A stretch of DNA of 64,000 nt from Anaerolineae bacterium (GCA_030432295.1 JAUIHI010000002.1:248001-312000); one strand, 5' to 3'. Positions 7,527 to 47,300 are shown, counted from the stretch's first letter. The notes: generated by a model from the letters alone, not told the origin. Translations and numbers: made by a program.

Positions 7527-7633
7527 ACCGTCACCCGTGACAATTGTCACGGGTGACGGTGTATATAGTCACCGTTGAGCGCCCAAGCCAGTGGCTGCTG
7601 TCACTGTTGGCTGGGTGGGGAATCCACTAAACT
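7527..7633 (+). promoter_or_regulatory. Shared promoter module, copy A (before MscS gene)
   Basis: A 34-bp perfect palindrome at 7527-7560 (core TGACAATTGTCA, centre 7543.5) is followed by GTGT-N6-TCAC centred at 7565.5 (+22) and TGGC-TGCT-GTCA centred at 7597.5 (+54). Next come the -35-like TGTTGG (7605-7610), 17 bp, and the -10-like TAAACT (7628-7633). The same geometry occurs at four other places. Transcription would begin near 7640, about 60 bases before the channel gene. Confidence 0.8.
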
Positions 7634-7700: not shown

Positions 7701-8537
7701 ATGGAGATCATCGATTTCGAGGAGATATATACGCAGATCACCGACTTGATCACCACCTGGGGGCCGAAGGTTGTCGGCGCCATCGCCGTCATAATCGTGG
7801 GTCGGATCGCTGCGGGTTGGAGTCGTCAGGGCCTACGCCGGGTTCTCGATCGGTCGAAAATGGATGCCACGCTGGCACCCTTCCTCTCCTCGCTGGCCTA
7901 CTACCTGGTTTTGGCCTTTTCAATCCTCGCCGCGCTCCAGTTGCTTGGACTTCAGACCACCTCCCTGGTTGCGCTCCTGGGTGCCGTGGCATTGGCGATT
8001 GGGCTTGCCCTTCAGGGCACAGTGAGCGACATCGCTTCGGGCGCTATGTTGCTTGCCTTCCGCCCGTTCAGCGTCGGGCAATACGTAGAAATCGGCGGGA
8101 CCGAAGGCACAGTCGATGGAATCGCTCTCTTTACGACGACTTTGAACACCCAGGACAACGTGCGGATCATCATGCCCAACTCTTCCGTCTGGGGACAGAT
8201 GATCAAGAACTATGCGGCCAACGACACCCGCCGGGTCGATCTACTGATTGGCGTCTCCTACGCCGATGACTTGAGCAAGGCAAAGGCGATCATCGAACAG
8301 GTCCTGGCAGCGGACGATCGGGTTCTGGCGGAGCCTGCGCCAGTGGTTGCGGTGTACGAGTTAGCGGAATCGAGCGTCAATCTTGTCGTGCGTCCCTGGT
8401 GCAAACGTGAGGAGTACTGGAAGGTGCGCTGGGACATCACCCAACGGGTCAAGGAAGAACTCGAAGCCCAGGGCTGCACGATTCCCTTTCCCCAGCAAGA
8501 TGTGCATCTCATCCAGGCGCGCGCCGAGGTGGCATAG
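7701..8537 (+). CDS. Small-conductance mechanosensitive channel, MscS family
   Basis: 278 residues from ATG 7701 (AGGAGA just upstream), close to the 286 of E. coli MscS. Three TM helices lie at about 18-40, 60-80 and 84-112. The third, pore-lining helix is Gly/Ala-rich (LLGAVALAIGLALQGTVSD). It is followed by the MscS beta-domain (FSVGQYVEIGGTEGTVDGI, IIMPNSSVWG) and an alpha/beta C-terminus with DLLIGVSYADDLSKA. It opens under membrane tension to release solutes during hypo-osmotic shock. It is monocistronic under shared promoter copy A and is followed by copy B of the same module, linking it to an envelope/osmotic-stress regulon. Confidence 0.95.
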   Translation: MEIIDFEEIYTQITDLITTWGPKVVGAIAVIIVGRIAAGWSRQGLRRVLDRSKMDATLAPFLSSLAYYLVLAFSILAALQLLGLQTTSLVALLGAVALAIGLALQGTVSDIASGAMLLAFRPFSVGQYVEIGGTEGTVDGIALFTTTLNTQDNVRIIMPNSSVWGQMIKNYAANDTRRVDLLIGVSYADDLSKAKAIIEQVLAADDRVLAEPAPVVAVYELAESSVNLVVRPWCKREEYWKVRWDITQRVKEELEAQGCTIPFPQQDVHLIQARAEVA

Positions 8538-8584: not shown

Positions 8585-8689
8585 GACCGCCCATGACAAT
8601 TGTCATGGGCGGTCGTGATCTATGGCACTGTTTCTTGCCCCGGCTAATGACTGCCGCCACTGTTGGTGAACCAATACTATTGGTAAGCT
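8585..8689 (+). promoter_or_regulatory. Shared promoter module, copy B (before SHOCT gene)
   Basis: A perfect 30-bp palindrome at 8585-8614 (centre 8599.5; contains CCCATGACAATTGTCATGGG) is followed by GTGA-N6-GCAC centred at 8621.5 (+22), TGAC-TGCC-GCCA centred at 8653.5 (+54), TGTTGG (8661-8666), a 17-bp spacer and TAAGCT (8684-8689). The 5' leader to the next start codon would be about 125 bases. Confidence 0.8.
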
Positions 8690-8820: not shown

Positions 8821-9147
8821 ATGTTTGGTGGACGTGGTGGTGGACCCGGTGGTGGAATGGGACACGGAGGTCCCCCGTTGATGGGCGGTATGGGCATGAG
8901 AAGGCCTGGTCTATTTGGCGGCCTGTTCTCGACCTTATTCACCGGTCTGATGGGTGGTGGCCTGGGCTATCTGATTGGCACCAACAGTGCCAATCAGCAG
9001 AAGCAGCAAGCAGAACAGACACCCACCACAGCCAACACAGACGACGCGAAATTGGTTCAGCTCAAAAAGCTTGGTGAATTGCGCGATTCGGGCGTGTTGA
9101 CTGACGAAGAATTTGCAAGCGAGAAAAATCGTCTGCTGAGGCAGTAG
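8821..9147 (+). CDS. Small glycine-rich protein with C-terminal SHOCT domain
   Basis: 108 residues; AAAGGAG lies 7 bases before the ATG. The N-terminal third is Gly/Met/Pro-rich (FGGRGGGPGGGMGHGG). A short hydrophobic segment (about 33-53, FSTLFTGLMGGGLGYLIG) and a Gln/Thr linker follow. The C-terminal SHOCT domain (about 78-106) contains LKKLGELRDSGVLTDEEF. SHOCT domains are short helical tails of unknown function, often on oligomeric membrane-associated proteins. It is the first gene after promoter copy B and may be co-transcribed with the DUF308 and CMD genes; the gaps of 120 bp carry only weak hairpins. Confidence 0.85.
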   Translation: MFGGRGGGPGGGMGHGGPPLMGGMGMRRPGLFGGLFSTLFTGLMGGGLGYLIGTNSANQQKQQAEQTPTTANTDDAKLVQLKKLGELRDSGVLTDEEFASEKNRLLRQ

Positions 9148-10337: not shown

Positions 10338-10443
10338 CCGCCACCCATGACTGTTGTCATGGGTGGCGGTGATTTAAGTCATTGTACATCGCCCACCCAG
10401 ATGACTGCTGACACTGTTGGCGTGTCTGAAACTTTGATAAGTT
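10338..10443 (+). promoter_or_regulatory. Shared promoter module, copy C (before duplicated DUF1566 lipoprotein)
   Basis: A palindrome at 10338-10369 has 14-bp perfect arms around TGTT (centre 10353.5). It is followed by GTGA-N6-TCAT centred at 10375.5 (+22), TGAC-TGCT-GACA centred at 10407.5 (+54), TGTTGG (10415-10420), 17 bp and TAAGTT (10438-10443). The leader to the start codon is about 95 bases. Confidence 0.8.
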
Positions 10444-10542: not shown

Positions 10543-13485
10543 ATGACCAAGAGAATACAGTTGCTATTCATTCTAGCACTGCTCGCCATCGGCCTTGTCG
10601 CCTGTAGCAGTAGCGAATCAGCAACCACACCAACAGCCGAGCCAGCTACGGCTGAAGCACAAACAGTTTCCGCAGTTGCCGATGAGGCGATAACCAGCAC
10701 TGCACTGACCTACCCCATCGTCGATACCAATCAGGGACTTTGCTTCAACAACAGCGAACAGATCGACTGTCCCGCCGAAGGGGAAGCCTTCTACGGGCAA
10801 GACGCCCAATACACGGGCAACGAGCCCAGCTACACAGACAACGGCGACGGCTCTATCAACGACAATGTCACCGGTCTGGTTTGGACCCAGGAAATCTCGA
10901 GCTATGCCATGCCCTGGTCTGACGCGGCCAGCTACTGTGAAGCCCTTGAGACCGGCGATGTCACCGACTGGCGCTTGCCCAGCCTGAAGGAATTGTGGTC
11001 GATCCGGGACTTTTCCCAAGGGTGGCCCTGGGTCGATACCGACTACTTCTACCTGGTCGGTGATGGTTCAGAACTTGGCCAGCACCATTCATGGACGAGC
11101 AACCTCTACCTGGTCGAAAGCGACTATCAGAACGAGCAAGTGCAGGGTGATCCGGCTTGGATTGTCAACGATTGGACCGGACACATCAAAGCCATGAGCG
11201 GCAACCGATTCGTGCGCTGTGTCAGCGGTGACGAGTACGGCATCAACGACTTCGTTGACAATGGCGACGGCACGGTCACCGACAATGCCACTGGCCTGAT
11301 GTGGGCCCAGGACGACAACGGCGAGGCCATCAACTGGGAAGCCGCGCTGGCCTATGCGGAAGATGCCACCACGGCTGGTTACGACGATTGGCGTCTGCCC
11401 AGCACCAAGGAATTGCAGAGCATTGCTGACTACTCCGGTGTCTTCCCGGCCATGGATTCATCCGTGTTCAATCTGACGGAACTCACGAATGTCGTGTATG
11501 ACATGGACACGGGCGAAGAGCTAGCCACCCAGGTCACGTATCCGGGTTACTGGACGGGTACGTCCAATCCGATAGTAGATGAGGATGCGACCGAGGGCGG
11601 CAACACGTATGCTTGGCTCATGGTTGTCGGCTATAACACAGACACGGCAGGCTACGATCTGCACGGTGCAGGCTCAGTTGTGTTTGACACCAAAGCGGAA
11701 GAGGTCTCCGATGGCACGGATTATGAGGTCATCTACCACCATGTGCGCCTGGTGCGCGGCGGTGATGTGACCGAAACACCGGATGGCGACCCAACCACCA
11801 TCAATCCTGATCGGGTTATCGTATTTGAAGACGGCGAAATGGGCGCTGGTGGTGGTCAGGGTGGTCAAGGTGACCAGGGCCCCGACTTTGCCGCCGCCGC
11901 TGCAACCCTTGGCGTCACCGAAGAAGCCCTGATGGAAGCGATGGGTGAACCCGGTCAGGAGCCAGATTTCGCCGCAGCCGCCGCCACACTCGGTGTCACA
12001 GCGGAAGAATTGGAAGCTGCGCTGATGAACAGCGGCGACACAATGGAAGGTGGCCCTTCCCCTGAAGAGTCGTCTGATGCTGGCGAGATGCCTGCAGATT
12101 CAGGCGAAACCGCCTACACCATCACCGCAACCGGACAGGGCTTCTGCTACAACAGCGACGGCGAAAAGATCGACTGCCCCGCCGCTGGTGAAGCCTTCTA
12201 CGGCCAGGATGCCCAGTTCACCGGCGCAGCCTTCGACTTCACCGACAACGGCGACAGCACCGTCACCGACAACGTCACCGGCCTCACCTGGGAACAGACG
12301 CCCAACAGCGGCCCCAGCAGTTGGCCCCAAGCACAGGAATACTGCGAAGCGTTGACGCTAGGCGATCTGGATGACTGGCGCATGCCGTCCCTGAAGGAGC
12401 TTTTCTCAATCAGCAACTTCTCGACGGGCTGGCCCTACCTGGATACCGACTACTTCGATCTGACTGTCAACGATTCCATTTCCAAGGACGAGCAATACTG
12501 GTCCAGCAACTACTACGTGGGCAAGACGAGTGAAGGCCAATTCGATGCCGCCTTTGGCGTCAACCACGCCACCGGCCACATCAAGGCATACCCGGCCCTG
12601 GTCACCGGCCCCATGGGCAAGTACGTGCGCTGTGTCTCCGGCGACGAGTACGGTATCAACGACTTCGCGGACAACGGCGATGGCACCATCACCGACAACG
12701 CCACCGCGCTGACATGGACCCAGGCCGACAGCGGCGAAGGCATGGACTGGGAAACAGCCTTGGCCTATGCTCAGGAAATGAACGAAGCCAACTACCTGGG
12801 CTACAGCGACTGGCGCCTGCCCAACGTCAAGGAACTGCAAAGCATCGTCGATTATGACTATGCCCCCGACGCACAGGACGAAGCGTATGACGGACCGGCC
12901 CTCAACCCGCTGTTCAGCGTGTCTGAGATTACCAATGAAGCCGGCAACCTGGACTATCCCTACTATTGGACAAGCACGTCGGCTCGCTTCCAGTCCACGG
13001 GCGATTTCTACTATGCCTGGTATATTGCCGCCGGCCGTGCGGTAGACGGCACAGGCGCGGATTCCCACGGAGCCGGGGCTGTGCGCTTCGACACGAAATC
13101 CGAGGACGGCCCGGCAGGTGAAGGTGGCGAACGTTACTACAACTACGTCATGCTGGTGCGCGGCGGTGATGTGGTCGAAACGCCGGACGGCGACCCGAAC
13201 GCCAATGACACGGCCCCTGTACTTGAGTTCAACGGTGGCGACCAGCCTGCTGGCGGCGCCCCGCAAGGAAGCGGCGGGCCGGGCCAGATGTTGGACTACG
13301 CGACTGCGGCGGCTACGCTGGGAATTTCCGAAGACGACCTGACGGCAGCAGTGGGTGACGCCGTTCAAGGCCCGCCAGACTTCGCTGCCGCTGCCGAAGC
13401 GCTGGGCGTGACAGAAGCAGACTTGATGGAGGCTTTGGGCATCGTCGGAGGCAGTATGCCGCCCGCGGGCCAGCCGGGCAATTAG
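10543..13485 (+). CDS. DUF1566 lipoprotein with internal tandem duplication
   Basis: 980 residues. The lipoprotein signal peptide ends LAIGLVAC (lipobox LVAC), followed by a Ser/Thr/Ala linker. The body is two tandem copies of the same unit. Each unit has a Cys-containing cap (GLCFNNSEQIDCP and GFCYNSDGEKIDCP) and two DUF1566 (Lcl-type) domains, at about 100-229 and 236-407, then 565-703 and 708-876. DUF1566 marks are repeated: TDNxTGLxWxQ, DWRLPSxKEL, RFVRCVSG, VRLVRGGDV. After each unit comes a pair of about 25-residue helical repeats (DFAAAAATLGVTEEALMEA). It is an exported surface protein; ligand and activity are unknown. The neighbouring gene at 13803 has the single-unit form. Confidence 0.9.
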   Translation: MTKRIQLLFILALLAIGLVACSSSESATTPTAEPATAEAQTVSAVADEAITSTALTYPIVDTNQGLCFNNSEQIDCPAEGEAFYGQDAQYTGNEPSYTDNGDGSINDNVTGLVWTQEISSYAMPWSDAASYCEALETGDVTDWRLPSLKELWSIRDFSQGWPWVDTDYFYLVGDGSELGQHHSWTSNLYLVESDYQNEQVQGDPAWIVNDWTGHIKAMSGNRFVRCVSGDEYGINDFVDNGDGTVTDNATGLMWAQDDNGEAINWEAALAYAEDATTAGYDDWRLPSTKELQSIADYSGVFPAMDSSVFNLTELTNVVYDMDTGEELATQVTYPGYWTGTSNPIVDEDATEGGNTYAWLMVVGYNTDTAGYDLHGAGSVVFDTKAEEVSDGTDYEVIYHHVRLVRGGDVTETPDGDPTTINPDRVIVFEDGEMGAGGGQGGQGDQGPDFAAAAATLGVTEEALMEAMGEPGQEPDFAAAAATLGVTAEELEAALMNSGDTMEGGPSPEESSDAGEMPADSGETAYTITATGQGFCYNSDGEKIDCPAAGEAFYGQDAQFTGAAFDFTDNGDSTVTDNVTGLTWEQTPNSGPSSWPQAQEYCEALTLGDLDDWRMPSLKELFSISNFSTGWPYLDTDYFDLTVNDSISKDEQYWSSNYYVGKTSEGQFDAAFGVNHATGHIKAYPALVTGPMGKYVRCVSGDEYGINDFADNGDGTITDNATALTWTQADSGEGMDWETALAYAQEMNEANYLGYSDWRLPNVKELQSIVDYDYAPDAQDEAYDGPALNPLFSVSEITNEAGNLDYPYYWTSTSARFQSTGDFYYAWYIAAGRAVDGTGADSHGAGAVRFDTKSEDGPAGEGGERYYNYVMLVRGGDVVETPDGDPNANDTAPVLEFNGGDQPAGGAPQGSGGPGQMLDYATAAATLGISEDDLTAAVGDAVQGPPDFAAAAEALGVTEADLMEALGIVGGSMPPAGQPGN

Positions 13486-13632: not shown

Positions 13633-13734
13633 CGCCCATGACAATTGTCACGGGCGTCGGTGATCCCAGTCACGGATGGTTGTCCGAAGTGATGACGGAC
13701 GCCACTGCCAAATGTGTTGCGAACAGGCTAAACT
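13633..13734 (+). promoter_or_regulatory. Shared promoter module, copy D (before second DUF1566 lipoprotein)
   Basis: A palindrome centred at 13644.5 (GCCCATGACAATTGTCACGG, one arm mismatch) is followed by GTGA-N6-TCAC centred at 13666.5 (+22, perfect CRP-like symmetry), TGAC-GGAC-GCCA centred at 13698.5 (+54), the -35-like TGCCAA (13706-13711), 17 bp and TAAACT (13729-13734). It lies about 70 bp before the start codon. Confidence 0.8.
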
Positions 13735-13802: not shown

Positions 13803-15374
13803 ATGAACAACCGCGTTGTACGAATATTACTCACTCTCAGCCTCCTTGCCGTGATTATTGCGGCCTGTGGCACATCGAGCACAACTACGGACAGTACGAC
13901 TTCCCCGGCTGAAACAGCAGTGGTGGCAGAGACACCATCAGAGACTGAAGTGGAAACAACAATCGAAGGTGCAGAAGAGGTTGCTTCTGATACTGGAGCA
14001 GAGGTGTTGACCACAGGCACCGACCCCATCGCCTACCCCATCGTCGATACGGGGCAGGGCACCTGCTATGACAACAGCGAACTCATCGACTGCCCCGCCG
14101 AAGGTGAAGCGTTCTACGGCCAGGATGCTCAGTTCACGGGCAATGAACCCAGCTACACCGACAACGGCGACGGCACAGTCACCGACAACGTTACCGGCCT
14201 GGTATGGACCCAGGAATTGTCCGATGCTTCCATGCCCTGGTCTGACGCCGCGGGCTACTGCGAATCCTTTGAGGTCGGCAGCATCACCGACTGGCGATTG
14301 CCCAACATCAAGGAACTGTGGTCGATCCGAGACTTCTCGACCGGCTGGCCCTGGGTCGATACCGACTACTTCTATCTGGTCGGCGATGGCTCTCAGGGTG
14401 CGCAACAGCATTCGTGGTCGAGCAACTACTACCTGGTCGATACAGAAGAAGCGACCAAGAACGTCGCCTTCATTGTCAACGACTGGACCGGCCATATCAA
14501 AGCGCTGGACGGTAATCGATTCGTGCGCTGTGTCAGCGGCGATGAGTATGGCATCAACGACTTTGTGGACAACGGCGACGGCACTGTCACCGACAATGCC
14601 ACTGGCCTGATGTGGGCGCAGGACGACAACGGTGAGGCCATCGATTGGGGAACCGCTCTGGCCTATGCTGAAGATGCCACCGATGCTGGCTACGACGATT
14701 GGCGTCTGCCCAATGTCAAAGAGCTACAGAGCATTGCCGACTACTCGGGTGTCTTCCCGGCCATTGATTCAACAGTGTTCAATCTGACAGGGATCACCAA
14801 CGAAGCCGGCAATGCCGACTATCCCTATTACTGGACAAGCACTTCCAATCCATACATCGATCCGAACGATGAGGACGGCTACTGGTACGCCTGGTATGTG
14901 GCTGCCGGCTACGCCGTAGACCACGATGGCAACGACACCCACGGGGCAGGCGCTGTCCGCTTTGACACCAAATCTGAAGACGGCGCAAGTGGCCCAGACG
15001 GCGAGCGTTACTACAACTATGTGCGCCTGGTGCGCGGCGGTGATGTGGTCGAAACGCCGGACGGTGATCCAAGCGCTTATCGCACGGACCGGGTGGTCGT
15101 GTTTGAGGATGGCGACACGGGTGACATCGGCAATAGCGCAGGTGGGCCAGAAGGCGGTGCGGGTGGGCCGCCTGACTTTGCTGCTGTCGCGGCCCAATTA
15201 GGCGTATCGGAAGAAGCGCTGATGGATGCGCTGGGCGATCCCAGCCAGGGGCAGCCTGACTTCGCCGCGGCTGCCGCCACGCTGGGCGTGACAGAAACAG
15301 ACCTGATGGATGCCTTGGGCATTGCTGAAGGTGGTATGCCAGCCGGAGGCCAACCGCCGACAAATACGCCGTAG
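13803..15374 (+). CDS. DUF1566 lipoprotein, single-unit form
   Basis: 523 residues; AAGGAG lies 7 bases before the ATG. The signal peptide has lipobox IIAAC, then a Thr/Glu-rich linker. One unit follows: a cap with two Cys (GTCYDNSELIDCP), DUF1566 domains at about 115-245 and 255-420, and two C-terminal helical repeats (DFAAVAAQLGVSEEALMDA and DFAAAAATLGVTETDLMDA). It is very close to each half of the 10543 gene at both DNA and protein level, so the three units come from local duplication. Its 3' region is also the parent-like sequence of the remnant at 23736. It is an exported, lipid-anchored protein, function unknown, controlled by promoter copy D. Confidence 0.9.
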   Translation: MNNRVVRILLTLSLLAVIIAACGTSSTTTDSTTSPAETAVVAETPSETEVETTIEGAEEVASDTGAEVLTTGTDPIAYPIVDTGQGTCYDNSELIDCPAEGEAFYGQDAQFTGNEPSYTDNGDGTVTDNVTGLVWTQELSDASMPWSDAAGYCESFEVGSITDWRLPNIKELWSIRDFSTGWPWVDTDYFYLVGDGSQGAQQHSWSSNYYLVDTEEATKNVAFIVNDWTGHIKALDGNRFVRCVSGDEYGINDFVDNGDGTVTDNATGLMWAQDDNGEAIDWGTALAYAEDATDAGYDDWRLPNVKELQSIADYSGVFPAIDSTVFNLTGITNEAGNADYPYYWTSTSNPYIDPNDEDGYWYAWYVAAGYAVDHDGNDTHGAGAVRFDTKSEDGASGPDGERYYNYVRLVRGGDVVETPDGDPSAYRTDRVVVFEDGDTGDIGNSAGGPEGGAGGPPDFAAVAAQLGVSEEALMDALGDPSQGQPDFAAAAATLGVTETDLMDALGIAEGGMPAGGQPPTNTP

Positions 15375-25105: not shown

Positions 25106-25211
25106 CAGCCACCCATGACAGTTGTCATGGGTGGCTGTGATCCGGGTCACCGATACCTGACCACAGGGGTGACTCGCTCCACTGGTGGCCGTGTCGTGAA
25201 CGGACTAAACT
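25106..25211 (+). promoter_or_regulatory. Shared promoter module, copy E (before redox operon)
   Basis: A palindrome at 25106-25137 (one central mismatch, centre 25121.5; CCCATGACAGTTGTCATGGG) is followed by TGTGA-N6-TCAC centred at 25143.5 (+22), TGAC-TCGC-TCCA centred at 25175.5 (+54), TGGTGG (25183-25188), 17 bp and TAAACT (25206-25211). It lies about 90 bp before the first gene of the operon. Confidence 0.8.
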
Positions 25212-25302
25212 GGCAGATGAAGAGACACGGCAGGTAAGACAGGCCGCTTGGAGATTGTCGAATGTGACAGTGAATGATTACAGGAAAGTGAGGACAACAC
25301 AC

Positions 25303-25623
25303 ATGAACAAGGCAAATCGTAATTTCTACGTGGACACGGCGATCGGGCTCGCCTTCCTCATCACCGGGATCAGCGCCCTGGTCTTTCTGATCCCGACCGG
25401 CTGGATCGATTTCACCATCAGCACCACGCCGACTGTGTTGGGGATCAACTTCGGCACCTGGCAGTCGCTGCACAAGTGGGCCGGTATTGTGATGATGCTA
25501 GGCGTGGCACTGCATCAACTGCTGCACTGGAAGTGGATCACCGCCATGACAAAGAAGATCCTCCCCAACCCCAAGCGGATTCGCAGCAGCAAAGTTGCAT
25601 CACCGCAGGCTAAAACGGCCTAG
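25303..25623 (+). CDS. DUF4405 membrane protein (flavinylation-associated cytochrome type)
   Basis: 106 residues from ATG 25303; the upstream GTGAGGA is a modest ribosome site. Two TM helices (about 10-30 and 56-78) are present. The second region has LHKWAGIVMMLGVALHQLLH, with three His placed as heme ligands in the DUF4405 family. Members are small b-type cytochrome-like proteins found beside extracytosolic flavoproteins, passing electrons across the membrane. It is the first gene of the copy E operon, 48 bp before the flavoprotein gene. Heme binding is inferred from the His pattern. Confidence 0.85.
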   Translation: MNKANRNFYVDTAIGLAFLITGISALVFLIPTGWIDFTISTTPTVLGINFGTWQSLHKWAGIVMMLGVALHQLLHWKWITAMTKKILPNPKRIRSSKVASPQAKTA

Positions 25624-25671
25624 CACACGGTGTGCTTAGCAAACGACGACACATATCTGGGGAGCAATCTC

Positions 25672-27504
25672 ATGCAGAAGATAACAGCACTAAGTGGACC
25701 AAAATTGAATCGTCGTGGTTTCTTGACCGCGACAGGATTGGCGGCTACGGCCTTCGCCATGCCCAGTTTTCTGGCGGGATGCAGCGGCTACGCTGAGAAT
25801 CTGGGCGTGACCTCCGTGGCCGCACTATCCGCATCGGGCGAGGAGACGCGGGTAAGCACCGATGTACTGGTCATCGGCGGCGGCATGGCAGGCGTCTTCG
25901 CAGCCGTCCGGGCCAAGGCTGCAGGACTCGACGTGACCCTCGTGGACAAGGGCACGGTGGGCCGTTCCGGGGCCACACCCTGGGCAAACACCTTTTCGGT
26001 CTTCGACGAAGCCGAGGGCGACGACCGGGCCGAATGGATATCCGGTGTACGGGCCAGCAGTGAATATGTCAACAACCTGGACTGGCTCGACCAAATGTTG
26101 GACGAGTCCAAGGCACGCTGGGAAGATATCAACGAGTGGGGAATGCTGGAGGAAAATGTCCAACACCCCAGCCTGGTATTGAGGGATAAGTTGCTGGAAA
26201 ACGAGATCAACCTGATTGAACGCACCATGATCACCACCCTGCTGACCCAGGATGATGACGGCGAGCGCCGGGTGGTCGGTGCCATGGGCTTCTCTATCGA
26301 TGGTGAGGCAGCGGTCACGATCCTGGCCAAGGCCACGATTATGGCCGCGGGCGCAGGCTCGTTCAAAGCCCCGGGATTTCCGATCCAGAGTCTCACATCG
26401 GATGGCGATGCCATGGCCTACAAAGTCGGGGCGGTCATCTCCGGCAAAGAGTGGATCGACTTCCATTTCACCTCGGCGGAGAATCCAGCGTCGTGCTGGA
26501 GCCAATGGTCAGGGATGTGGGATTCGGGTGTGGGCAAAATGAGCCAGGTCTTCACTGCAGGTATGACACTGGATGGGGCCTTTGCAAAACACACGGGCGA
26601 AGAGACGCAGAGCAGTAGTCCAGGCGGCGAACGGCCCTCGGGCCCGCCCCCCGACGCTGAGGGCGGTGAAGCCCCATCCGGTCCGCCCCCCGATGCTGAG
26701 AACGGCGAAGGCTCATCCGGTCTGCCGGCTGGGCAGAGCCAAGGCGAACAAGTGCTTGGCGCGGCCACAGGGTTAGGCATCCACAAGGCCGAAGGCATCT
26801 GGCCCATCAACATGCAGGGAGCCAGCAATATCCCCGGCCTCTACGCGGCGGGTGATGGATTGGCGTCCATGTTGTGCGGTTCAAGCTACGTCGGGCTGGG
26901 CTTCTCGCTGAGTGGTTCTGCTGTCCAAGGCGCTGTTGTGGGCGACGGCGCGGCTGCGTATGCAAGCACAGTCCTGGCGCCTACGCTGTCGGACGACGAG
27001 ATCGCCGCTTTCCAGGAAGCCATGTTTGCACCCCGCCAGCGCGAGAGCGGTTTCTCACCAGCTTGGGTGACACAGGTCATGCAAAACACCATGTTCCCGT
27101 ACTATGTGCTCTTCGTGAAAGAGCAAGCACGCCTGGAAGCGGCGTTGTCGACCATCACCTTCCTGCGGGAGCATATCGTCCCGCAGCTTACCGCCCAGGA
27201 TGCCCACGAGCTGAAGCTGGCCCACGAGACGGCCAACATGCTGGTCAACGCCGAGATGAAACTGCGGGCCTCCCTCTTCCGCACGGAGAGTCGAGGGACC
27301 CACTATCGGGAAGACTATCCCGCACGCAATGACGACGAGTGGCTGGCCTGGGTCCTGCTGCAGATGGACGCGGACGGCCAGATGGCGGTCACGAAAGAAG
27401 CAATCCCCGATGCCTGGAAGCCCGACCTGAGTATTCCGTACGTGGAACGGTACGTGAACCGCTTCCCTGGGGAACTCGAATATCTGGGTTTGGCTAGCGG
27501 ATAG
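25672..27504 (+). CDS. Exported FAD-dependent oxidoreductase, fumarate-reductase/AprA-like
   Basis: 610 residues from ATG 25672 (GGGGAG 8 bases upstream). The N-terminus carries a twin-arginine signal (LNRRGFLTATGLAATAFAM) ending in a lipobox-like LAGC, so it is probably exported folded and perhaps lipid-anchored. FAD binding: DVLVIGGGMAGVFAAVRAK, GRSGATPWANTF and the C-terminal GLYAAGDGLASMLCGSSYVG. A Pro/Gly/Ser-rich insert (about 320-362, PSGPPPDAEGGEAPSGPPPD) replaces part of the usual capping domain. The substrate is unknown; the usual fumarate-site residues were not identified. It lies between the DUF4405 protein and a ferredoxin that may act as its electron partners. Confidence 0.9.
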   Translation: MQKITALSGPKLNRRGFLTATGLAATAFAMPSFLAGCSGYAENLGVTSVAALSASGEETRVSTDVLVIGGGMAGVFAAVRAKAAGLDVTLVDKGTVGRSGATPWANTFSVFDEAEGDDRAEWISGVRASSEYVNNLDWLDQMLDESKARWEDINEWGMLEENVQHPSLVLRDKLLENEINLIERTMITTLLTQDDDGERRVVGAMGFSIDGEAAVTILAKATIMAAGAGSFKAPGFPIQSLTSDGDAMAYKVGAVISGKEWIDFHFTSAENPASCWSQWSGMWDSGVGKMSQVFTAGMTLDGAFAKHTGEETQSSSPGGERPSGPPPDAEGGEAPSGPPPDAENGEGSSGLPAGQSQGEQVLGAATGLGIHKAEGIWPINMQGASNIPGLYAAGDGLASMLCGSSYVGLGFSLSGSAVQGAVVGDGAAAYASTVLAPTLSDDEIAAFQEAMFAPRQRESGFSPAWVTQVMQNTMFPYYVLFVKEQARLEAALSTITFLREHIVPQLTAQDAHELKLAHETANMLVNAEMKLRASLFRTESRGTHYREDYPARNDDEWLAWVLLQMDADGQMAVTKEAIPDAWKPDLSIPYVERYVNRFPGELEYLGLASG

Positions 27505-27551
27505 CGCGCAGGATCACCGGAATCGAGTGCAAAGATAGAGGAGACATCCCA

Positions 27552-27773
27552 ATGGCTATAAAACTGATCGATCCACGTAAATGTATCGGCTGCGGAACCT
27601 GTGTTATTTCATGCCCAACGGACGTGATCCGTATGAACAAAGAAACGTCCCATGCGGTTATTATGTATCCTGAGGACTGCCAGATCTGCAACATGTGCGT
27701 GAATTTCTGTCCTGTAGATGCAATCACTGTCACGGCAGATAAATCCATCTCCATTCTCACCGCTTGGGGGTAG
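27552..27773 (+). CDS. Two-cluster 4Fe-4S ferredoxin-type subunit
   Basis: 73 residues with GAGGAGA upstream. Two complete CxxCxxCxxxC motifs are present (CIGCGTCVISCP and CQICNMCVNFCP), giving an 8-iron ferredoxin fold. It has no signal peptide of its own. Co-transcription with the Tat flavoprotein (47 bp gap) resembles adenylylsulfate-reductase-like AB pairs, where a flavin subunit and a ferredoxin subunit form one enzyme; it could therefore be co-exported with the flavoprotein or act in the cytoplasm. Confidence 0.93.
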   Translation: MAIKLIDPRKCIGCGTCVISCPTDVIRMNKETSHAVIMYPEDCQICNMCVNFCPVDAITVTADKSISILTAWG

Positions 27774-27848
27774 GACGCGCTGAAAGGGTGTTGATATGGG
27801 CATGACAAAGCAAGAGTCAACTACGCAACAACAAAAGGGAGGATCAGC

Positions 27849-28850
27849 TTGAAGAAATACCTGCTATGGATACTAATGATTTTGCTGTTGGCTGGGTGCA
27901 GTAGCACTGAGCCAACAGCTTCACCAACAGAGGAAGCTGCGGTTGCAGATGTTTCTGCAACCGCAACAGAAGTAGAGGCGGTTGAACCGACGGCAGTTGT
28001 GGATGAGGATTCGGCCGCAATCGTGCCGCCCACCACCGCGTGCAACGCTTTCCTCGACAACACAACGACCCTTTGCGAAACGGATATCGCGTTGGTCGAA
28101 TCGAACGGTCTTCCCACAACCCACAACATGATGGTGGGTATTGTCAGTTGGCAGCAACAATTCCCGCTGCCGCAAGCGTACACCGGCGACAATGCCTGGC
28201 AAATCCCGCTCGATCCCGAACTTTCTGACAACCCGATCTCCGGCGCAACCGATCTGTTTCGCGGTGCCATTGCCCTGGCGGTCAATGGGGTTCCGATCTT
28301 CAACGCGCTCAACAATCGCGGGGACGATGCGTATTTGGCAGGAGAGTTGGATCAATGGGGAGGCCATAGCGGTCGTGCTGACGACTACCACTACCATATT
28401 GCACCGACCCATTTGCAGGATATTGTCGGCACGGACCAGCCAATTGCCTTCGGACTGGATGGGTTCCCGCTCTACGGTTTGACCGAACCGGATGGCTCAC
28501 CTGTTGTCGGTTTGGATGCGTACAACGGGCATTTTGACGACGACGGCAACTACCACTATCACGCCACTGAGACGTACCCTTATATCAACGGTGGAATGCG
28601 GGGGGTCGTGGACTATCAAGGGGGCCAAGTCGAGCCGCAACCCCACACCCACGAGATTCGCCCGGCCGGGGAGCCACTACGGGGCGCGGAGATCACAGCG
28701 TTCTCCCAGACAGGAACCAATGCATTCTCGTTACAATACACACTCGATAGCGAAACGTATACCGTCAACTACACCATTGAAAACGAAGTCTACACCTTTG
28801 AATTTATCGATCCGGCAGGCAATCGGACTGTTGAGACATACAAGCCTTGA
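27849..28850 (+). CDS. YHYH-domain lipoprotein (TTG start)
   Basis: 333 residues starting at TTG 27849, supported by GGGAGG 6 bases upstream and by a signal peptide that begins right there (LLWILMILLLAGC, lipobox LAGC). A Thr/Glu/Ala linker precedes the YHYH region (about 95-265). That region contains ADDYHYHIAPT, AFGLDGFPLYG and DGNYHYHATETYPYINGGM, the paired HxH motifs that name the family and probably bind metal. It is the fourth gene of the copy E operon. Its role beside a flavoprotein and ferredoxin is unknown. Confidence 0.92.
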   Translation: MKKYLLWILMILLLAGCSSTEPTASPTEEAAVADVSATATEVEAVEPTAVVDEDSAAIVPPTTACNAFLDNTTTLCETDIALVESNGLPTTHNMMVGIVSWQQQFPLPQAYTGDNAWQIPLDPELSDNPISGATDLFRGAIALAVNGVPIFNALNNRGDDAYLAGELDQWGGHSGRADDYHYHIAPTHLQDIVGTDQPIAFGLDGFPLYGLTEPDGSPVVGLDAYNGHFDDDGNYHYHATETYPYINGGMRGVVDYQGGQVEPQPHTHEIRPAGEPLRGAEITAFSQTGTNAFSLQYTLDSETYTVNYTIENEVYTFEFIDPAGNRTVETYKP

Positions 28851-28899
28851 TTTTCTGCTGTTTCATGTCGATTGAAATACACCATTTGGAGAGCACTCT

Positions 28900-29742
28900 A
28901 TGAGAAAGTTAACTATCATTGCGCTGATGATGTTTGTACTCGTTGGTTGTAGTGGGGCAGCTGAGCCTACCCCAACCCCAACGGAAGCAGCCACTACCGA
29001 GCCGCCCACAGCGGTCGCTGTGACTGAACCAACACCGGCAACCGCTGAAAGTGGGTCAGACAACACGGCTGCCGAAGGGGAAACCGATGTGGCCGCCACA
29101 GAAGCCGCCACAGAAGCTGTCACGGAAGCCGCCACGGAAGCTGTCGCAACCAGCACCTTCCAGATTGAAGCGTGGGCCGACAACTGGTTCGCCGCCTATT
29201 TGGACGAAAATCTGATCGTTGAGGATTCGGTCTCCATCAACACCGAACGCTCCTTCAATGCGGAGACAGCCACCTTTGAGGCCAGCTATCCGCTCAATCT
29301 CAACTTCATCCTGAAGGACTTCAAGGAGAACGACACGGGGCTGGAATATATCGGCGCGCGCAACCAGCAGATGGGCGATGGCGGCTTCATTATGCAGTTG
29401 ACCGACCTGAGTACAGGCGAAGTGGTGGCGGTCTCCAACGCGGAGTGGGCCTGTACGGTCATTCACGAAGCGCCGCTGGATAAATCCTGCGAATCGGAGG
29501 CAAATCCCCAGGCTGGTATAGCCCCCTGCACATTCATCGATCTGGGCGAACCCGACGGGTGGAAAGCGGCCGATTTCGACGACAGCAGTTGGACAGCGAC
29601 GACCGTCCATTCCGCCAGCGCTGTCAGCCCCAAAGATGGGTATGACCAAATTCGTTGGGACGCAAGCGCAGAATTCGTTTGGGGACCAGATTTAGAGACC
29701 GATAACACAATTTTGTGCCGGGTGACAGTTGAAGCGCCGTAG
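28900..29742 (+). CDS. Lipoprotein of unknown function, end of redox operon
   Basis: 280 residues, GGAGAG 8 bases upstream. The signal peptide ends LVGC, followed by a long Thr/Glu/Pro/Ala linker with the repeat ATEAATEAVTEAATEA. The folded part (about 88-280) has four Cys (WACTVIHEAP, KSCES, APCTF, ILCRV) and the segment DLGEPDGWKAADFDDSSWTA, which looks like a jelly-roll/beta-sandwich motif found in glycosidase accessory domains. No family was recognised with certainty. It ends the five-gene operon; a strong terminator follows 18 bp later. Confidence 0.8.
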   Translation: MRKLTIIALMMFVLVGCSGAAEPTPTPTEAATTEPPTAVAVTEPTPATAESGSDNTAAEGETDVAATEAATEAVTEAATEAVATSTFQIEAWADNWFAAYLDENLIVEDSVSINTERSFNAETATFEASYPLNLNFILKDFKENDTGLEYIGARNQQMGDGGFIMQLTDLSTGEVVAVSNAEWACTVIHEAPLDKSCESEANPQAGIAPCTFIDLGEPDGWKAADFDDSSWTATTVHSASAVSPKDGYDQIRWDASAEFVWGPDLETDNTILCRVTVEAP

Positions 29743-29760
29743 CCCACAACCATAACGCCA

Positions 29761-29799
29761 AGAAAGCGCGTCCGACAGAATTCTTCGGACGCGCTTTCT
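29761..29799. terminator. Bidirectional terminator between convergent genes
   Basis: A 15-bp perfect stem (AGAAAGCGCGTCCGA against TCGGACGCGCTTTCT) lies between the rightward lipoprotein gene and the end of the leftward serine hydrolase gene at 29834. Confidence 0.8.
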
Positions 29800-36280: not shown

Positions 36281-38218
36281 TTACTTATAACTGCGTTGGG
36301 TCAATTTGACATTCTCAAAGACCAGCGGCTCTTTGTTCAGAATCGGTGCGCCGGGGTTGCCTGTGCTCTCCCAGGCCGAAACGTAGGCGAACTCGTCGTC
36401 CTTGCGCAGGGCCTCGCCTTCGGGGGTCTGGCTTTCGCTGCGGAAGTGCGCGCCGCAGGACTCGGACCGGTCCAGCGCGTCCAACGCCAACAGTTCGCCC
36501 AGCTCCAGGAAGTCGGCCACCCGACCCGCCATCTCCAGACTCTGGTTCAGGTCCGCAGCCGAGCCGGGGACCTTCACATTCTGCCAGAATTCGTCACGCA
36601 GGGCGGGGATCAGTTCCAGCGCCTTGCGCATTCCTTCTTCATTGCGCTCCATCCCGCAGTAGTCCCACATAATGTGGCCCAGCTCCCGGTGGAAGGAATC
36701 GACCGAGCGGTTGCCGTTGATGGAAAGCAGCTTCTCCGTGCGCTCGTTGACCTCTGCCGCGGCAGCCCGGAAAGGTTCGTCGTCGACGCTCACTTTGTCC
36801 AGTTTGGCTCCGGCCAGATAGTTGGGCAGGGTGTAGGGCAAGACGAAGTAGCCATCGGCCAGCCCCTGCATCAGTGCGCTGGCCCCCAACCGGTTGGCTC
36901 CGTGATCCGAGAAGTTGGCCTCGCCGATCACAAAGAGGCCGGGAATGTTGCTCTCCAAATTGTAGTCCACCCACAGGCCGCCCATTGTATAGTGCAGGGC
37001 CGGATAGATGCGCATAGGCACGCTGTAGGGGTCCTCGCCGGTGATGCGCTCGTACATATCAAAGAGGTTACCGTAGCGCTCTTTAATGACCTGCTGCCCC
37101 AAGCGACCCGTGGCGTCGGCAAAGTCCAGAAAGACGCCATTCTTGAGCGGGCCGACGCCGTGGCCTTCGTCCACCACTGTTTTGGCGTTACGGGAGGCCA
37201 CATCTCTCGGCACCAGATTGCCAAAACTGGGGTACTTCTCTTCCAGATAGTAGTAACGCTCGGCTTCGGGAATGTCTTTGGCTGCCCGGGTGTCGCCCGC
37301 CTTGCGGGGAACCCAAATGCGCCCGTCGTTGCGCAGGCTCTCGCTCATCAGTGTCAGCTTGGACTGGTGCTCACCCGCCGGTGGAATACAGGTCGGGTGA
37401 ATCTGTGTGAAGCAGGGGTTGGCAAAGTAGGCGCCCCGCTTGTGGGCACGCCAGGCCGCGGTCACATTGCAGCCTTTGGCGTTGGTGGAGAGATAGTAGA
37501 GATTGCTGTAGCCACCTGTGCCCAGCACCACCACATCCGCGGCGTGGCGCTGAATCTCGCCCGTCACCATATCCCGGGTGATAATGCCCCGCGCCCGGCC
37601 ATCAACGATGACCAGATCGAGCATTTCGTTGCGGCTGTGGAGTTTGACTGTGCCCGCGTTGACCTGCCGTTCCAACGCCTGATACGCGCCAAGCAGAAGC
37701 TGCTGGCCTGTCTGCCCCCGCGCGTAGAAAGTGCGGGAGACCTGCGCACCCCCGAACGAGCGGTTATCCAACATTCCACCGTACTCACGGGCAAAGGGGA
37801 CGCCCTGGGCCACGCACTGGTCGATGATACTGTTGGCGACCTGGGCCAGCCGGTAGACGTTGGCTTCCCGGCTGCGATAGTCGCCGCCTTTGATGGTGTC
37901 ATAGAAGAGGCGGAAGACGCTGTCGCCGTCGTTGCGATAGTTCTTGGCCGCATTGATGCCGCCCTGGGCCGCGACGCTGTGGGCGCGTCGGGCGCTGTCC
38001 TGATAGAAGAAGGCGTCTACACTGTAGCCCATCTCACCCAGGCTGGCCGCTGCGGATGCACCGGCCAGCCCCGTACCCACCATAATAATCTTGAAGCGCC
38101 GCCGATTGGCCGGTGCCAGCAATTTCATATCAAAGCGGTGCTGATCCCAAATGTCTGCCAGCGCGCCACTGGGAACGCCCCCGTCCAGAATCTTGCCCAT
38201 CTGAATACTATCTGCCAT
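36281..38218 (-). CDS. sdhA: Succinate dehydrogenase/fumarate reductase flavoprotein subunit
   Basis: 645 residues from the ATG at 38218, which has GGAGG 6 bases upstream; the open frame extends further but without support. FAD binding is shown by [20 protein letters not shown] and [18 protein letters not shown], whose His is the usual covalent-FAD attachment residue. The catalytic region has [11 protein letters not shown] and the capping/C-terminal helical domain is complete ([20 protein letters not shown]). It oxidises succinate to fumarate (or the reverse) as part of complex II. It lies 13 bp after sdhC. Confidence 0.97.
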
Positions 38219-38231
38219 GCCATACCTCCGG

Positions 38232-38918
38232 TTACAGTGTGACGAAACCAAACAGCACCGACAGCGGAACAATTGCAAAGCCCACCGAGATCAGGAGACT
38301 CAGGGCCAGGGCAAAACCGCGCAGAGAACTGTCGTATTTCTGATTGTTGAAGCCGAGGGTCTGGAACATACTCCAGCTTCCGTGATAGAGATGAAAACCC
38401 AGGGCAGTCACAGCGACCAGATAAAAGATCACATTGAAGACGCTCTGGAAACCGCCCACCAGATTGCCGTAGGCGTCGCCCGGGACAAAGCCGCTGGGCG
38501 GAATAGGGATCAGCCCCCAGGTGAAGTGGGCCAGGTGGTAGAGCAGAAAGAGCCCAATCGCCACTCCACCGTAGCGCATAGTGATGGAAGCGTAGTTGGC
38601 CTGCACCACACGCTTCATCTCATAGCTCTGGGGGCGAGCAGTCCGCGCGGCTTTGGTCAGAGAAATCGCGGCCCAGATGTGGGCCAGGACCGAAACAGCC
38701 ACAACGATCCGCAGAACCGTCAGCAGATGGAGATGTGAAAAAAGCGGTGCGCCCAACTCCCGTAGCGACTCGGCATAGTGGTTGAAATACGCTGCGCCCT
38801 GATAGACTTTCAGATTGCCGTACATGTGGAAGGCGAGGAAGCCAACCCAAACCAGGCCGGTCACCGCCATAATCACTTTCTTCCCGATGGTGGATCGGGT
38901 AAGGGTCATCACTGCCAT
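38232..38918 (-). CDS. sdhC: Succinate dehydrogenase cytochrome b558 membrane subunit
   Basis: 228 residues; AAAGGAG is upstream of the ATG. Five TM helices are visible, with His residues in or near them ([46 protein letters not shown]) that can ligate one or two hemes, as in the B. subtilis-type subunit. It anchors SdhAB and reduces the quinone. First gene of the sdhCAB operon; no separate sdhD is present, which fits this class. Confidence 0.95.
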
Positions 38919-44327: not shown

Positions 44328-47300
44328 ATGATTTTGAGCAGCACCACAACTTCAAAATTGACTCGAACCACTGCCAGCCTGACCGTAGCCGGGCTGCTAA
44401 CGCTTCTACTGGCTATTGGGCTGGGCAGCCTGAAGCCCCGACAGGCCCAGGCCGCGGAGGATACCTGCTTTGCCACCATCGACGGGGCAACAGTCTACAG
44501 CAGCGCGGATGCCAGCGCGGTGCAGGATGCGGTGAATGAAGCCAGCAGCGACGAGACCATCAAAGTAGCCGGGACTTGCACAGGGGTGCAGACCATCAGC
44601 AGCAAAACCCAAACGGTCTACATCAGTAAGACCATCACTCTCATAGGCGGCTATGCCAACGGCAGTTGGAATGACATCCCCGATCCCGTGGCCAACCCCA
44701 CGGTTCTGGATGCCAACAGCAGCGGGCGCGTCGTCTATGTGACCAGCAGCGGAAACGTTACCCTGCAAAACCTGATCCTGCGCAACGGCAGCAGCGATTT
44801 TGGCGGGGCCATCTGGCAGAGCGGCCCGGTGACGCTGGAAACCAGCCAGATCAGTGACAGCACTGCCCAGGCGGGCGGGGCCATCTATTCCGACAACAGC
44901 GCCCTGACCATCACCCACAGCAGCCTGATCAGCAACACAGCCTCGACCAACAACGGCGGCGCCATCTACAACGGCGACAGCGCCATCGTCATCGAACTCA
45001 GCACCTTCAGCAACAACAGCGCGGCCAACGAGGGCGGGGCCATTTACGCTGGTACATATCCAGTTACCATCCGCTATAGCACATTCAGCCACAACAGCGC
45101 GGGCAGCGGCGGCGGCGCGATCAATGGCGGGCCTAAATTATCCCTGACCTACAGCATCGTCGCCAACACCACCAGCGGCGGAGACTGCGCCGAATTTGGC
45201 ACAGGCATTGTCGACGGTGGGTACAACCTAATCGAAGACAGCAGTTGTATCGACGCGTCCACCAGCCAAAGCGGCGACCCAGCACTGAGTGCGCTTGCGG
45301 ATAATGGCGGATGGACCCTCACCCACGCCCTCAACCCAACCAGCCCAGCCCGCGACACCGTGCCCTTTGGATTCGACGGCTGCGGCGTCAGCGACGTCAT
45401 CGATCAGCGGGGCGTCGCCAGGGCCAATGGGTCCGGCTGCGATAGTGGAGCGTATGAGTACGAAGGCTCTGGCCCCACTGCCGTTAACGACACCTACACC
45501 ACGGATGAAGATGTCCCTCTGACGCTGGCAGATCCCGGCGTCCTCAGCAATGCCACCAACGCCGACAGTGACACCCTCTACGCCAGCCTGAGCGGCAGCA
45601 CCAGCAACGGCACGCTGGTTTTTAGTAACCTGGGTGGCTTCACCTATACGCCTACACTGAATTTCAACGGCACAGATGCCTTCAGTTACGCTGTTGCTGA
45701 TGGGGCCTTATCAGCCGATGCTCACTGGGCCTTTAACGAAGGCAGCGGCAGCAACACGTACAATGCCAAGAATCCCCTCCTCAACAACGCCTTGATCGGC
45801 GATGCCACCTTCATCGATTCTCCCCTGCCTGGCGGGCAGCATTTCGCCAACGCCTATGCCCTGGACCTAGACGGCGACGGCGACCGAGTGAACATCCCCG
45901 ATTCCAGCTTCATCAATACCCCCGCCAACGGTGTCAGCAAACGGACCCATTCCGCTTGGTTTCGAGCCGACGATGTGAGCCTCAACAGCCGCAAGCAGGT
46001 TATCTGGGAACAAGGCGGATCGACAAATGGGCTGAACATCTATCTGTTTGACGGCGCGCTCTATGCAGGAGCCTGGGCAACAAGTAGTGGTTGGAACGGC
46101 ACCTGGCTGAGTACAAGCGCAATCACCTCCGGTCAGTGGCACCACGTGGCCCTTGTGCTAAACAGCGACTCCACCACTGGCCCCGTGGCAAACCGTCTCT
46201 TTCTCTATCTGGATGGCGTGCGGGTAGCCACCGGCTCTGCGGCCAAGGTGCCTTTCCACACGTCCGACAATGGCATTGGCGATGTGAATGATGCTACCCG
46301 CTTCCACACGGGTGGATACGGTGACAGCGGTGGCCACGGTTTCGCCGGGCAGATCGACGACATGCGGGTGATGAACCACGTGGCGACGGCCAACGAAATC
46401 AAGACGATCATGGTCGCCTGGCCGGGATCTGACGGCGGGACGGCCGTTGCTACCCTCAATGTCTCCCCGGTCAACGATGCCCCGGTGGCCACCGACAACA
46501 GCTACAGCCTGGACGAGGACGCCACCCAATCCGGCAATGTGATCAGCGACGATACCGGCAATGGCATGGACAGCGATGTGGACAACGATACCCTGATCGC
46601 TTCGTTGGATACGAACGTCAGCCACGGCAGCCTCTCCTTGGCAGCAGATGGCGCGTTTATCTACACCCCCACCTTGAATTTCAACGGCACGGACAGTTTC
46701 ACTTACGCCGTCACTGATGGGGCCTTACCGGTGGTGGGACACTGGCCCTTTAACGAGGGCAGCGGCAACAGCGCATATGACGCCAGCGGCAATTATTTCA
46801 CCGGTACGCTGGTCGGCGACGCTACGTTCAGCAACGCTTCCCTGCCCAGCGGGCTGGAATTCTCCAACGCCTATGCCCTGGACCTGGACGGTGACGGCGA
46901 CCGGGTGAATATCCCCGATTCCAGCCTGATCAACGCGACCCCTATTAGCCAGCGCACGCTTTCGGCCTGGTTCCGGGCCGATGATAAAAGCGTAAAGAGC
47001 CGCAAGCAGATTATTTGGGAAGAAGGCGGCCATGTAACTGGGTTTAACCTCTACCTTTTCGACGGCGCACTAGTTGGCGGAGCCTGGGCGGATAATAACG
47101 GTTGGAGCGGCACCTGGCTCAGTACCACCCAAATTACCTCCGGTCAGTGGCATCACGTGGCCCTGGTGCTGGACAGCGACACCGCAGAGAGGCTCGTTCT
47201 CTACCTGGACGGAGAAGCGGTGCAAAGCAGCATCGCCATTAATTCGGTGTCCAGCCACAACGGGGACATCGGCATTGGGGATGTCAATGGCAATACGAAG

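Follow-up and report, generated by a model that had tools for sequence, protein, structure and literature searches.

Gene content of the operon

The stretch of DNA analysed here, which we call the window, comprises 64,000 nucleotides (GCA_030432295.1, JAUIHI010000002.1:248001-312000) of an Anaerolineae bacterium genome of 6.7 Mb in 61 contigs. Five genes occupy positions 25303-29742, all on the plus strand. They are separated by gaps of 48, 47, 75 and 49 nt, and each is preceded by a purine-rich ribosome-binding site (Table 1). A first-pass annotation, made from the sequence alone, had described a tightly spaced operon, and its five genes are real. The local gene calls are mechanical; Pfam assigns families to the first four products, confirming them as a DUF4405 protein, a flavoprotein, a two-cluster ferredoxin and a YHYH protein, and assigns none to the fifth. 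The operon had also been credited with its own promoter and terminator. A conserved promoter class does lie upstream and a terminator-like hairpin downstream, but the hairpin has no T tract, and scans with consensus sequences found sites no more numerous than in shuffled DNA. The upstream hairpin was considered as the terminator of the preceding gene; this reading was replaced by that of an operator, and both roles are possible.

Table 1. Positions of the operon genes, candidate regulatory sites and related sequence elements (window coordinates unless a locus handle is given).
Feature	Position	Strand	Basis or remark
Candidate operator, same class	7535..7552		ahead of MscS-type channel gene 7701-8537
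Candidate operator, same class	8591..8608		ahead of Pro/Gly-rich SHOCT protein gene 8821-9147
Candidate operator, same class	10345..10362		ahead of Lcl_C (DUF1566) lipoprotein gene 10543-13485
Candidate operator, same class	13636..13653		ahead of Lcl_C (DUF1566) lipoprotein gene 13803-15374
Candidate operator sequence, same class			CCCATGACAATTGTCATGGG
Perfect 15-bp inverted repeat	25106..25137		centre 25113-25130 is the candidate operator (CCATGACAGTTGTCATGG)
Conserved promoter	25111..25214	+	operator, second half-sites, CACTGTTG-like block, -10-like TAAACT at 25206-25211
DUF4405 protein, 106 aa	25303..25623	+	Pfam, two hydrophobic helices, HX13H
FAD flavoprotein of 610 aa with a Tat signal; succinate dehydrogenase/AprA superfamily, cap replaced	25672..27504	+	Pfam, tree, alignment
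Pro/Gly-rich segment of the flavoprotein, capping-domain span	26605..26757	+	alignment
2[4Fe-4S] ferredoxin, 73 aa, without export signal; presumed Tat hitchhiker	27552..27773	+	Pfam
YHYH lipoprotein, TTG start, predicted metal site	27849..28850	+	Pfam, conserved residues
Last lipoprotein, family annotated 'PEBP family protein' in Rhodobacterales	28900..29742	+	four invariant cysteines
Hairpin with a perfect 15-bp stem and no T tract, presumed terminator	29761..29799	+	-34.3 kcal/mol, z -8.5
'LGVTEEALREALG' tails	window 10543-13485, 13803-15374; L126:8881-10977; L042:9727-11538; L128:6704-8116; L130; L156:6554-7726
Small exported family (PPREA.EAC....C.F..P.G....GTC......AC.P)	L074:5275-5556; L156:4515-4919; L162:8444-8797

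A flavoprotein predicted to be exported, with a ferredoxin and a membrane partner

The flavoprotein begins with MQKITALSGPKLNRRGFLTATGLAATAFAMPSFLAGC, a Tat-type signal with an NRRGFL motif, and the genome encodes tatC (201.3 bits). With both the twin-arginine signal and the translocase gene present, export by the Tat system is predicted, in agreement with the annotation. Pfam places the protein in PF00890 (FAD_binding_2; 62.4 bits against a cut-off of 20.4) and finds Succ_DH_flav_C (65.8 against 20.8). In an alignment with E. coli SdhA, a Pro/Gly-rich stretch at about residues 312-362 falls within the span of the capping domain, as the annotation had proposed, and a segment of this kind stands at the cap position in all six exported flavoproteins found. 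As judged from these alignments, the cap is replaced by the Pro/Gly-rich segment. An AlphaFold model of the flavoprotein, built from a two-row alignment, had a pLDDT of 30, and a search of viral contigs for relatives that might deepen this alignment gave none useful for the flavoprotein.

The residues of the dicarboxylate site of SdhA (R286, R399, T254 and E255) are absent from six of the six exported flavoproteins. The covalent-FAD histidine (SdhA H45) is missing too; histidine is kept at the positions of SdhA H242 and H354. The exported proteins share invariant residues of their own: D263, H265, C275 and H371-K372. The flavoprotein scores below the cut-off of every NCBIfam equivalog or subfamily model tested, reaching at best 161.6 of the 587 bits needed among the succinate dehydrogenase and fumarate reductase models, and the AprAB models TIGR02061 and TIGR02060 gave 68.5 of 641.75 and 37.4 of 135.65 bits. 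These scores and residues rule out a succinate, fumarate, aspartate or adenylylsulfate enzyme. An ApbE-flavinylated carrier is also ruled out, since the flavoprotein has no FMN_bind domain (PF04205); among loci of this type only the Ilyobacter membrane partner described below carries one.

In a maximum-likelihood tree, which is based on one search and has some long-branched outer rows, the six exported flavoproteins form one clade (support 100/99) drawn from three phyla. This clade joins a cytoplasmic clade in a 100/100 group, which excludes E. coli SdhA, FrdA and NadB as well as the remaining cytoplasmic pairs; the genes of the cytoplasmic sister clade adjoin ferredoxins and dipeptide-type ABC transporters. 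Because columns filled only in the exported proteins fall short of the 30% filling threshold, the grouping is not driven by the insert. The annotation had held that its proposal would fail if the flavoprotein clustered inside a family with a defined substrate; the cut-offs and the residues both place it outside such families.

When 84,980 species genomes were searched with six short flavoprotein peptides, a single relative emerged, in the MAG of Chloroflexi bacterium J111, where the DUF4405, flavoprotein and ferredoxin genes stand in the same order and their products are 64, 71 and 86% identical, respectively, to those of the window. Profile searches of 396 genomes of the class and 46 of the family recovered the full-length exported form only in the window's genome and J111, whose contig proved identical when checked; it is absent from the six genomes of the same genus. 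Plasmid records yielded two further loci, bringing the exported clade to four. In Ilyobacter polytropus, a NapH-like, FMN-binding membrane protein and a ferredoxin are followed by three flavoproteins and then by TatA-TatC-TatA, and Paracoccus seriniphilus encodes a ferredoxin, a six-helix MsrQ-like protein (annotated as ferric reductase-like, with no Pfam match) and a Tat flavoprotein. The conserved unit is three genes: the DUF4405 protein, the Tat flavoprotein and the signal-less two-cluster ferredoxin. That all five genes form one conserved unit was rejected, because the YHYH protein and the last lipoprotein occur apart from redox genes. Conservation of the set elsewhere thus holds for the trio in J111, and for flavoprotein, ferredoxin and a membrane partner in Ilyobacter and Paracoccus, but not for the five genes. 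Together with the correction of the YHYH start to a TTG codon, this leaves the first-pass description as a whole partly confirmed. Its suggestion of an electron-transfer chain to an exported substrate is supported for the trio by this recurrence, but not for the two lipoproteins.

The first gene product matches DUF4405 (PF14358) at 33.9 bits against a cut-off of 26.7. It has two hydrophobic helices, the second slightly below the hydropathy threshold here and barely at it in J111, and one HX13H pair (H57, H71); the 106-residue chain by itself has neither six helices nor four central histidines. Proteins of the DUF4405 family bind haem b and are tied to extracytosolic flavin systems, and they are related to the ferrosome protein FezC, which has been modelled as a homodimer (PMC11334425). 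The MsrQ-like partner of Paracoccus carries two HX13H helices per chain, so a dimer of the short DUF4405 protein would provide the same four ligands, and we predict that the protein is half of a dimerizing di-haem b cytochrome. The membrane partner thus varies between loci, being a DUF4405 protein, a six-helix MsrQ-like protein with two HX13H helices, or an FMN/NapH-like protein; all three types are known as electron modules to the outside (PMC8238504; PMC11334425).

The ferredoxin has two 4Fe-4S motifs by Pfam, and no export signal was found in any ferredoxin of the exported-clade loci. In Ilyobacter, two of the three flavoproteins also lack a signal; the third has one and is followed by the Tat genes. 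Export of the signal-less proteins alongside a Tat-bearing subunit is the simplest reading of these arrangements, and such hitchhiking has been demonstrated for PaoABC (PMC4273604).

The fourth product matches YHYH (PF14240; 49.3 bits against a cut-off of 25), and D168, H173, H181, H183, D204, D223 and H238 are kept in 12 of 12 proteins. This set of Asp and His residues matches a proposed zinc site, and a metal site is predicted; the literature found on the family consists of a prediction of a zinc-dependent hydrolase associated with phage tails (PMC7824862). The viral-contig search returned three distant YHYH proteins; these domains lie in large, structural-looking proteins of virus contigs (L168, L169 and L170), in agreement with the phage-tail association. 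Some YHYH genes adjoin a HupE/UreJ protein gene or have a heavy-metal ATPase nearby. The last lipoprotein was described as a Cys-containing protein of unassigned family, and this stands: beyond the absence of a Pfam family, it has four further cysteines, invariant in 8 homologues, and only weak beta-sandwich similarity (E 0.006). No homology to a true YbhB/YbcL (PEBP) protein was seen. One homologue (G032:C53, L083:6019-6761) is split into overlapping frames and is probably a broken gene or an assembly error. In Rhodobacterales, the YHYH protein and the last lipoprotein are paired without redox genes; relatives of the window's genome encode last-lipoprotein homologues with neither YHYH nor redox genes adjoining, and neither protein was found in the J111 genome (87% complete). 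The two form a separable pair and are neither electron carriers nor conserved parts of the chain; they are linked to the trio through regulation and shared gene frames.

A shared promoter class and adjacent two-component genes

The inverted repeat upstream of the operon contains CCRTGACNNNNGTCAYGG, which together with about 90 aligned bases down to the -10 element defines a promoter class. Six exact copies of CCRTGACNNNNGTCAYGG occur at the window locus, ahead of the genes for the MscS-type channel, the SHOCT protein, the two Lcl_C lipoproteins, the redox operon and, in the upstream flank, a YHYH protein. A further exact copy precedes an Lcl_C gene of J111, and copies with one mismatch precede the J111 trio and a YHYH gene of genome G019. 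In 794 kb of other DNA from the window's genome, a control covering 12% of that genome, there was no exact copy and a single one with one mismatch. Eight promoters can be aligned over about 105 bases without a gap, and a ninth with a gap of 1 base; the shared parts include additional TGAY/GTCAC half-sites, CACTGTTG and, at constant spacing, a -10 that resembles TAAACT. When each promoter was left out in turn from the eight-promoter matrix, members scored 58-84 bits (83.6 for the redox operon, about 80 for the J111 sites) and the flanking YHYH site 18.8, and no position on either strand of the control reached 5 bits. Neither the Ilyobacter nor the Paracoccus locus showed a promoter of this class.

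Orthologous two-component genes of the NarL type adjoin two of these sites. The J111 pair, a HisKA_3 kinase with its regulator, is divergent from the trio; the best match of this kinase in the window's genome scores 326.8 bits, the next 134.8. The matching kinase is divergent from a YHYH gene located some 6 kb upstream of the window, and the regulators of the two genomes are 69% identical. In each of the two genomes one site lies some 45 bases ahead of the kinase gene, a position consistent with autoregulation. Most simply, a NarL-family response regulator would act through the operator class, and the promoter set points to a previously undescribed surface-redox and cell-envelope regulon.

Related genes recur in Rhodobacterales. 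Antarctobacter has the order kinase, regulator, small protein, di-haem oxidoreductase, YHYH and patatin, and in Paracoccus the orthologous kinase (46% identity), regulator (65%), small protein (39%) and patatin (53%) flank the ferredoxin, MsrQ-like and flavoprotein genes. The kinases of both have a Pro/Gly-rich periplasmic stretch. The small proteins belong to an exported family (Table 1) found near two-component genes and patatin; the Paracoccus member, the only one scanned, had no Pfam match.

The wider surroundings contain several further features. Window positions 1459-23311 and the flank L126 form a dense exoprotein locus with two-component genes, a MacB ATPase and permease, an HlyD adaptor with a Pro/Gly tail, Lcl_C lipoproteins, Cthe_2159, CotH with LTD, GT2-GtrA and a phosphodiester glycosidase. 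In several genomes of two phyla, unrelated exported proteins (Lcl_C, YHYH, SH3) terminate in a short, helical-looking repeat, 'LGVTEEALREALG', which often follows a Pro/Gly-rich segment; 3 of the 26 island genes and none of 290 control genes encode such a tail. An island-wide excess of Pro/Gly-rich segments is weak by count (3/26 against 13/290). A crude signal call was positive for all three Pro/Gly-rich island genes and for one of the 13 controls, many of which look like wrong frames. Elsewhere in the window lie a giant surface protein, encoded by an open frame of 4670 residues (44328-58340) whose domains are cadherin-like, Big_9, laminin-G and FG-GAP, and minus-strand frames (36281-38918) that resemble succinate dehydrogenase flavoprotein and cytochrome subunits.

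Proposed function and comparison with known systems

We propose, as a reading that is somewhat more likely than not, that the trio is a membrane-tethered oxidoreductase on the outside of the cytoplasmic membrane, fed outward from quinol, with a role in the cell envelope and co-regulated with envelope genes. Two HX13H helices of a DUF4405 dimer would hold two b haems and take electrons from quinol. The flavoprotein would fold with its FAD in the cytoplasm and be exported by Tat with the ferredoxin as a passenger, and electrons would pass from the haems through the 2[4Fe-4S] ferredoxin and FAD to an oxidized target outside. The Pro/Gly-rich segment, probably disordered, may leave the flavin site open or serve to dock a partner. 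Through one operator-promoter class the operon would be switched on together with the YHYH, Lcl_C, MscS and SHOCT genes, and its role may be the repair or maturation of surface components. The apparent co-regulation with envelope genes argues for service to the cell envelope rather than to central metabolism. We infer the direction of electron flow, the substrate and the binding of the regulator; we favour outward flow since the three types of partner are known chiefly for outward transfer (PMC8238504; PMC11334425) and since the genes lie in an apparent envelope regulon, as for MsrPQ (PMC9302797).

Instead, the trio could reduce a small organic acceptor in respiration and so support growth, like the exported fumarate, urocanate and methacrylate reductases, with which it shares its superfamily and type of membrane electron supply (PMC8238504). 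The three paralogues in one cluster of Ilyobacter polytropus, a marine-mud isolate, would suit such a function, and the dipeptide-type transporters beside the cytoplasmic sister clade make small substrates plausible. We consider this unlikely: the dicarboxylate residues are missing, a Pro/Gly-rich segment replaces the cap that would close the site, and the co-regulated genes encode surface lipoproteins and a channel, not catabolic enzymes. The parts are also reversible, and NapH-type modules serve oxidases as well (PMC8238504), which would allow the flavoprotein to oxidize an exported substrate and send electrons inward through the ferredoxin and b haems to the quinone pool; as MsrQ-like and DUF4405-like modules are tied chiefly to outward transfer (PMC8238504; PMC11334425), a dehydrogenase of this kind seems quite improbable. 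Still further from our expectation, and very improbable, is a metal or iron reductase with a purpose like that of the FezC/PepSY systems, in which the flavin would serve only to pass electrons on to metal ions outside the cell, with YHYH as the metal-binding protein. The kinship of DUF4405 with FezC (PMC11334425), the preserved His/Asp site of YHYH and the HupE/UreJ and heavy-metal ATPase neighbours speak for it, but the trio's own operons have no metal transporter, and the invariant D263, H265, C275 and H371-K372 exceed what a relay needs.

A bolder form of the envelope oxidoreductase that we favour is speculative and in our judgement rather unlikely. Here the undescribed regulon would be driven by a NarL-type two-component system through one operator, the cap-less exported Fe-S flavoprotein would act directly on surface macromolecules, for example in reductive repair or maturation of lipoproteins, and the Pro/Gly segments of the enzyme, the sensor kinases, YHYH and other surface proteins would be a common docking element.

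With the trio, the known exported flavin enzymes gain a class that is cap-less and coupled to a ferredoxin, and a single enzyme core is seen to be connected to three different membrane electron modules across three phyla. The promoter class connects YHYH, Lcl_C/DUF1566 and SHOCT proteins to a defined redox enzyme and a particular regulator pair, and the role of YHYH, so far a prediction only, becomes testable through one regulon.

Like the extracytosolic fumarate reductase-like oxidoreductases of PF00890 (PMC8238504), the exported flavoprotein is fed by a membrane module that is interchangeable between lineages. In those enzymes the partners are FMN-binding domains or cytochromes, whereas here there is a separate 2[4Fe-4S] ferredoxin, no FMN_bind on the flavoprotein and a replaced cap, and the protein is closer to ferredoxin-paired, AprA-like cytoplasmic enzymes. 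With AprBA and the cytoplasmic FAD-ferredoxin pairs of Chloroflexota it shares the flavoprotein C-terminal domain and a 2[4Fe-4S] partner next door, but these are cytoplasmic and have no Pro/Gly cap segment, identity is 25-32%, and the exported clade lies outside them. The 8-methylmenaquinol:fumarate reductase MfrABE (PMC2680327) is likewise Tat-linked and of the succinate dehydrogenase superfamily; against its model, however, the flavoprotein scores 61 bits of a cut-off of 1100, and the dicarboxylate residues are missing. The DUF4405/FezC cytochromes (PMC11334425) resemble our membrane partner in the PF14358 match and the conserved helix histidines, but have six helices and four histidines where ours has 106 residues, two helices and one HX13H pair, in an operon without apbE. 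MsrPQ with HprSR (PMC9302797) also combines a Tat-exported reductase, a haem b membrane partner, adjacent two-component genes and a palindromic box. MsrP is a molybdopterin enzyme, whereas the operon has no MsrP-type molybdopterin domain by Pfam and the enzyme here would use Fe-S clusters and FAD; a repair role is a proposal. The trio would work like the MsrPQ-type periplasmic reductases without being one of them.
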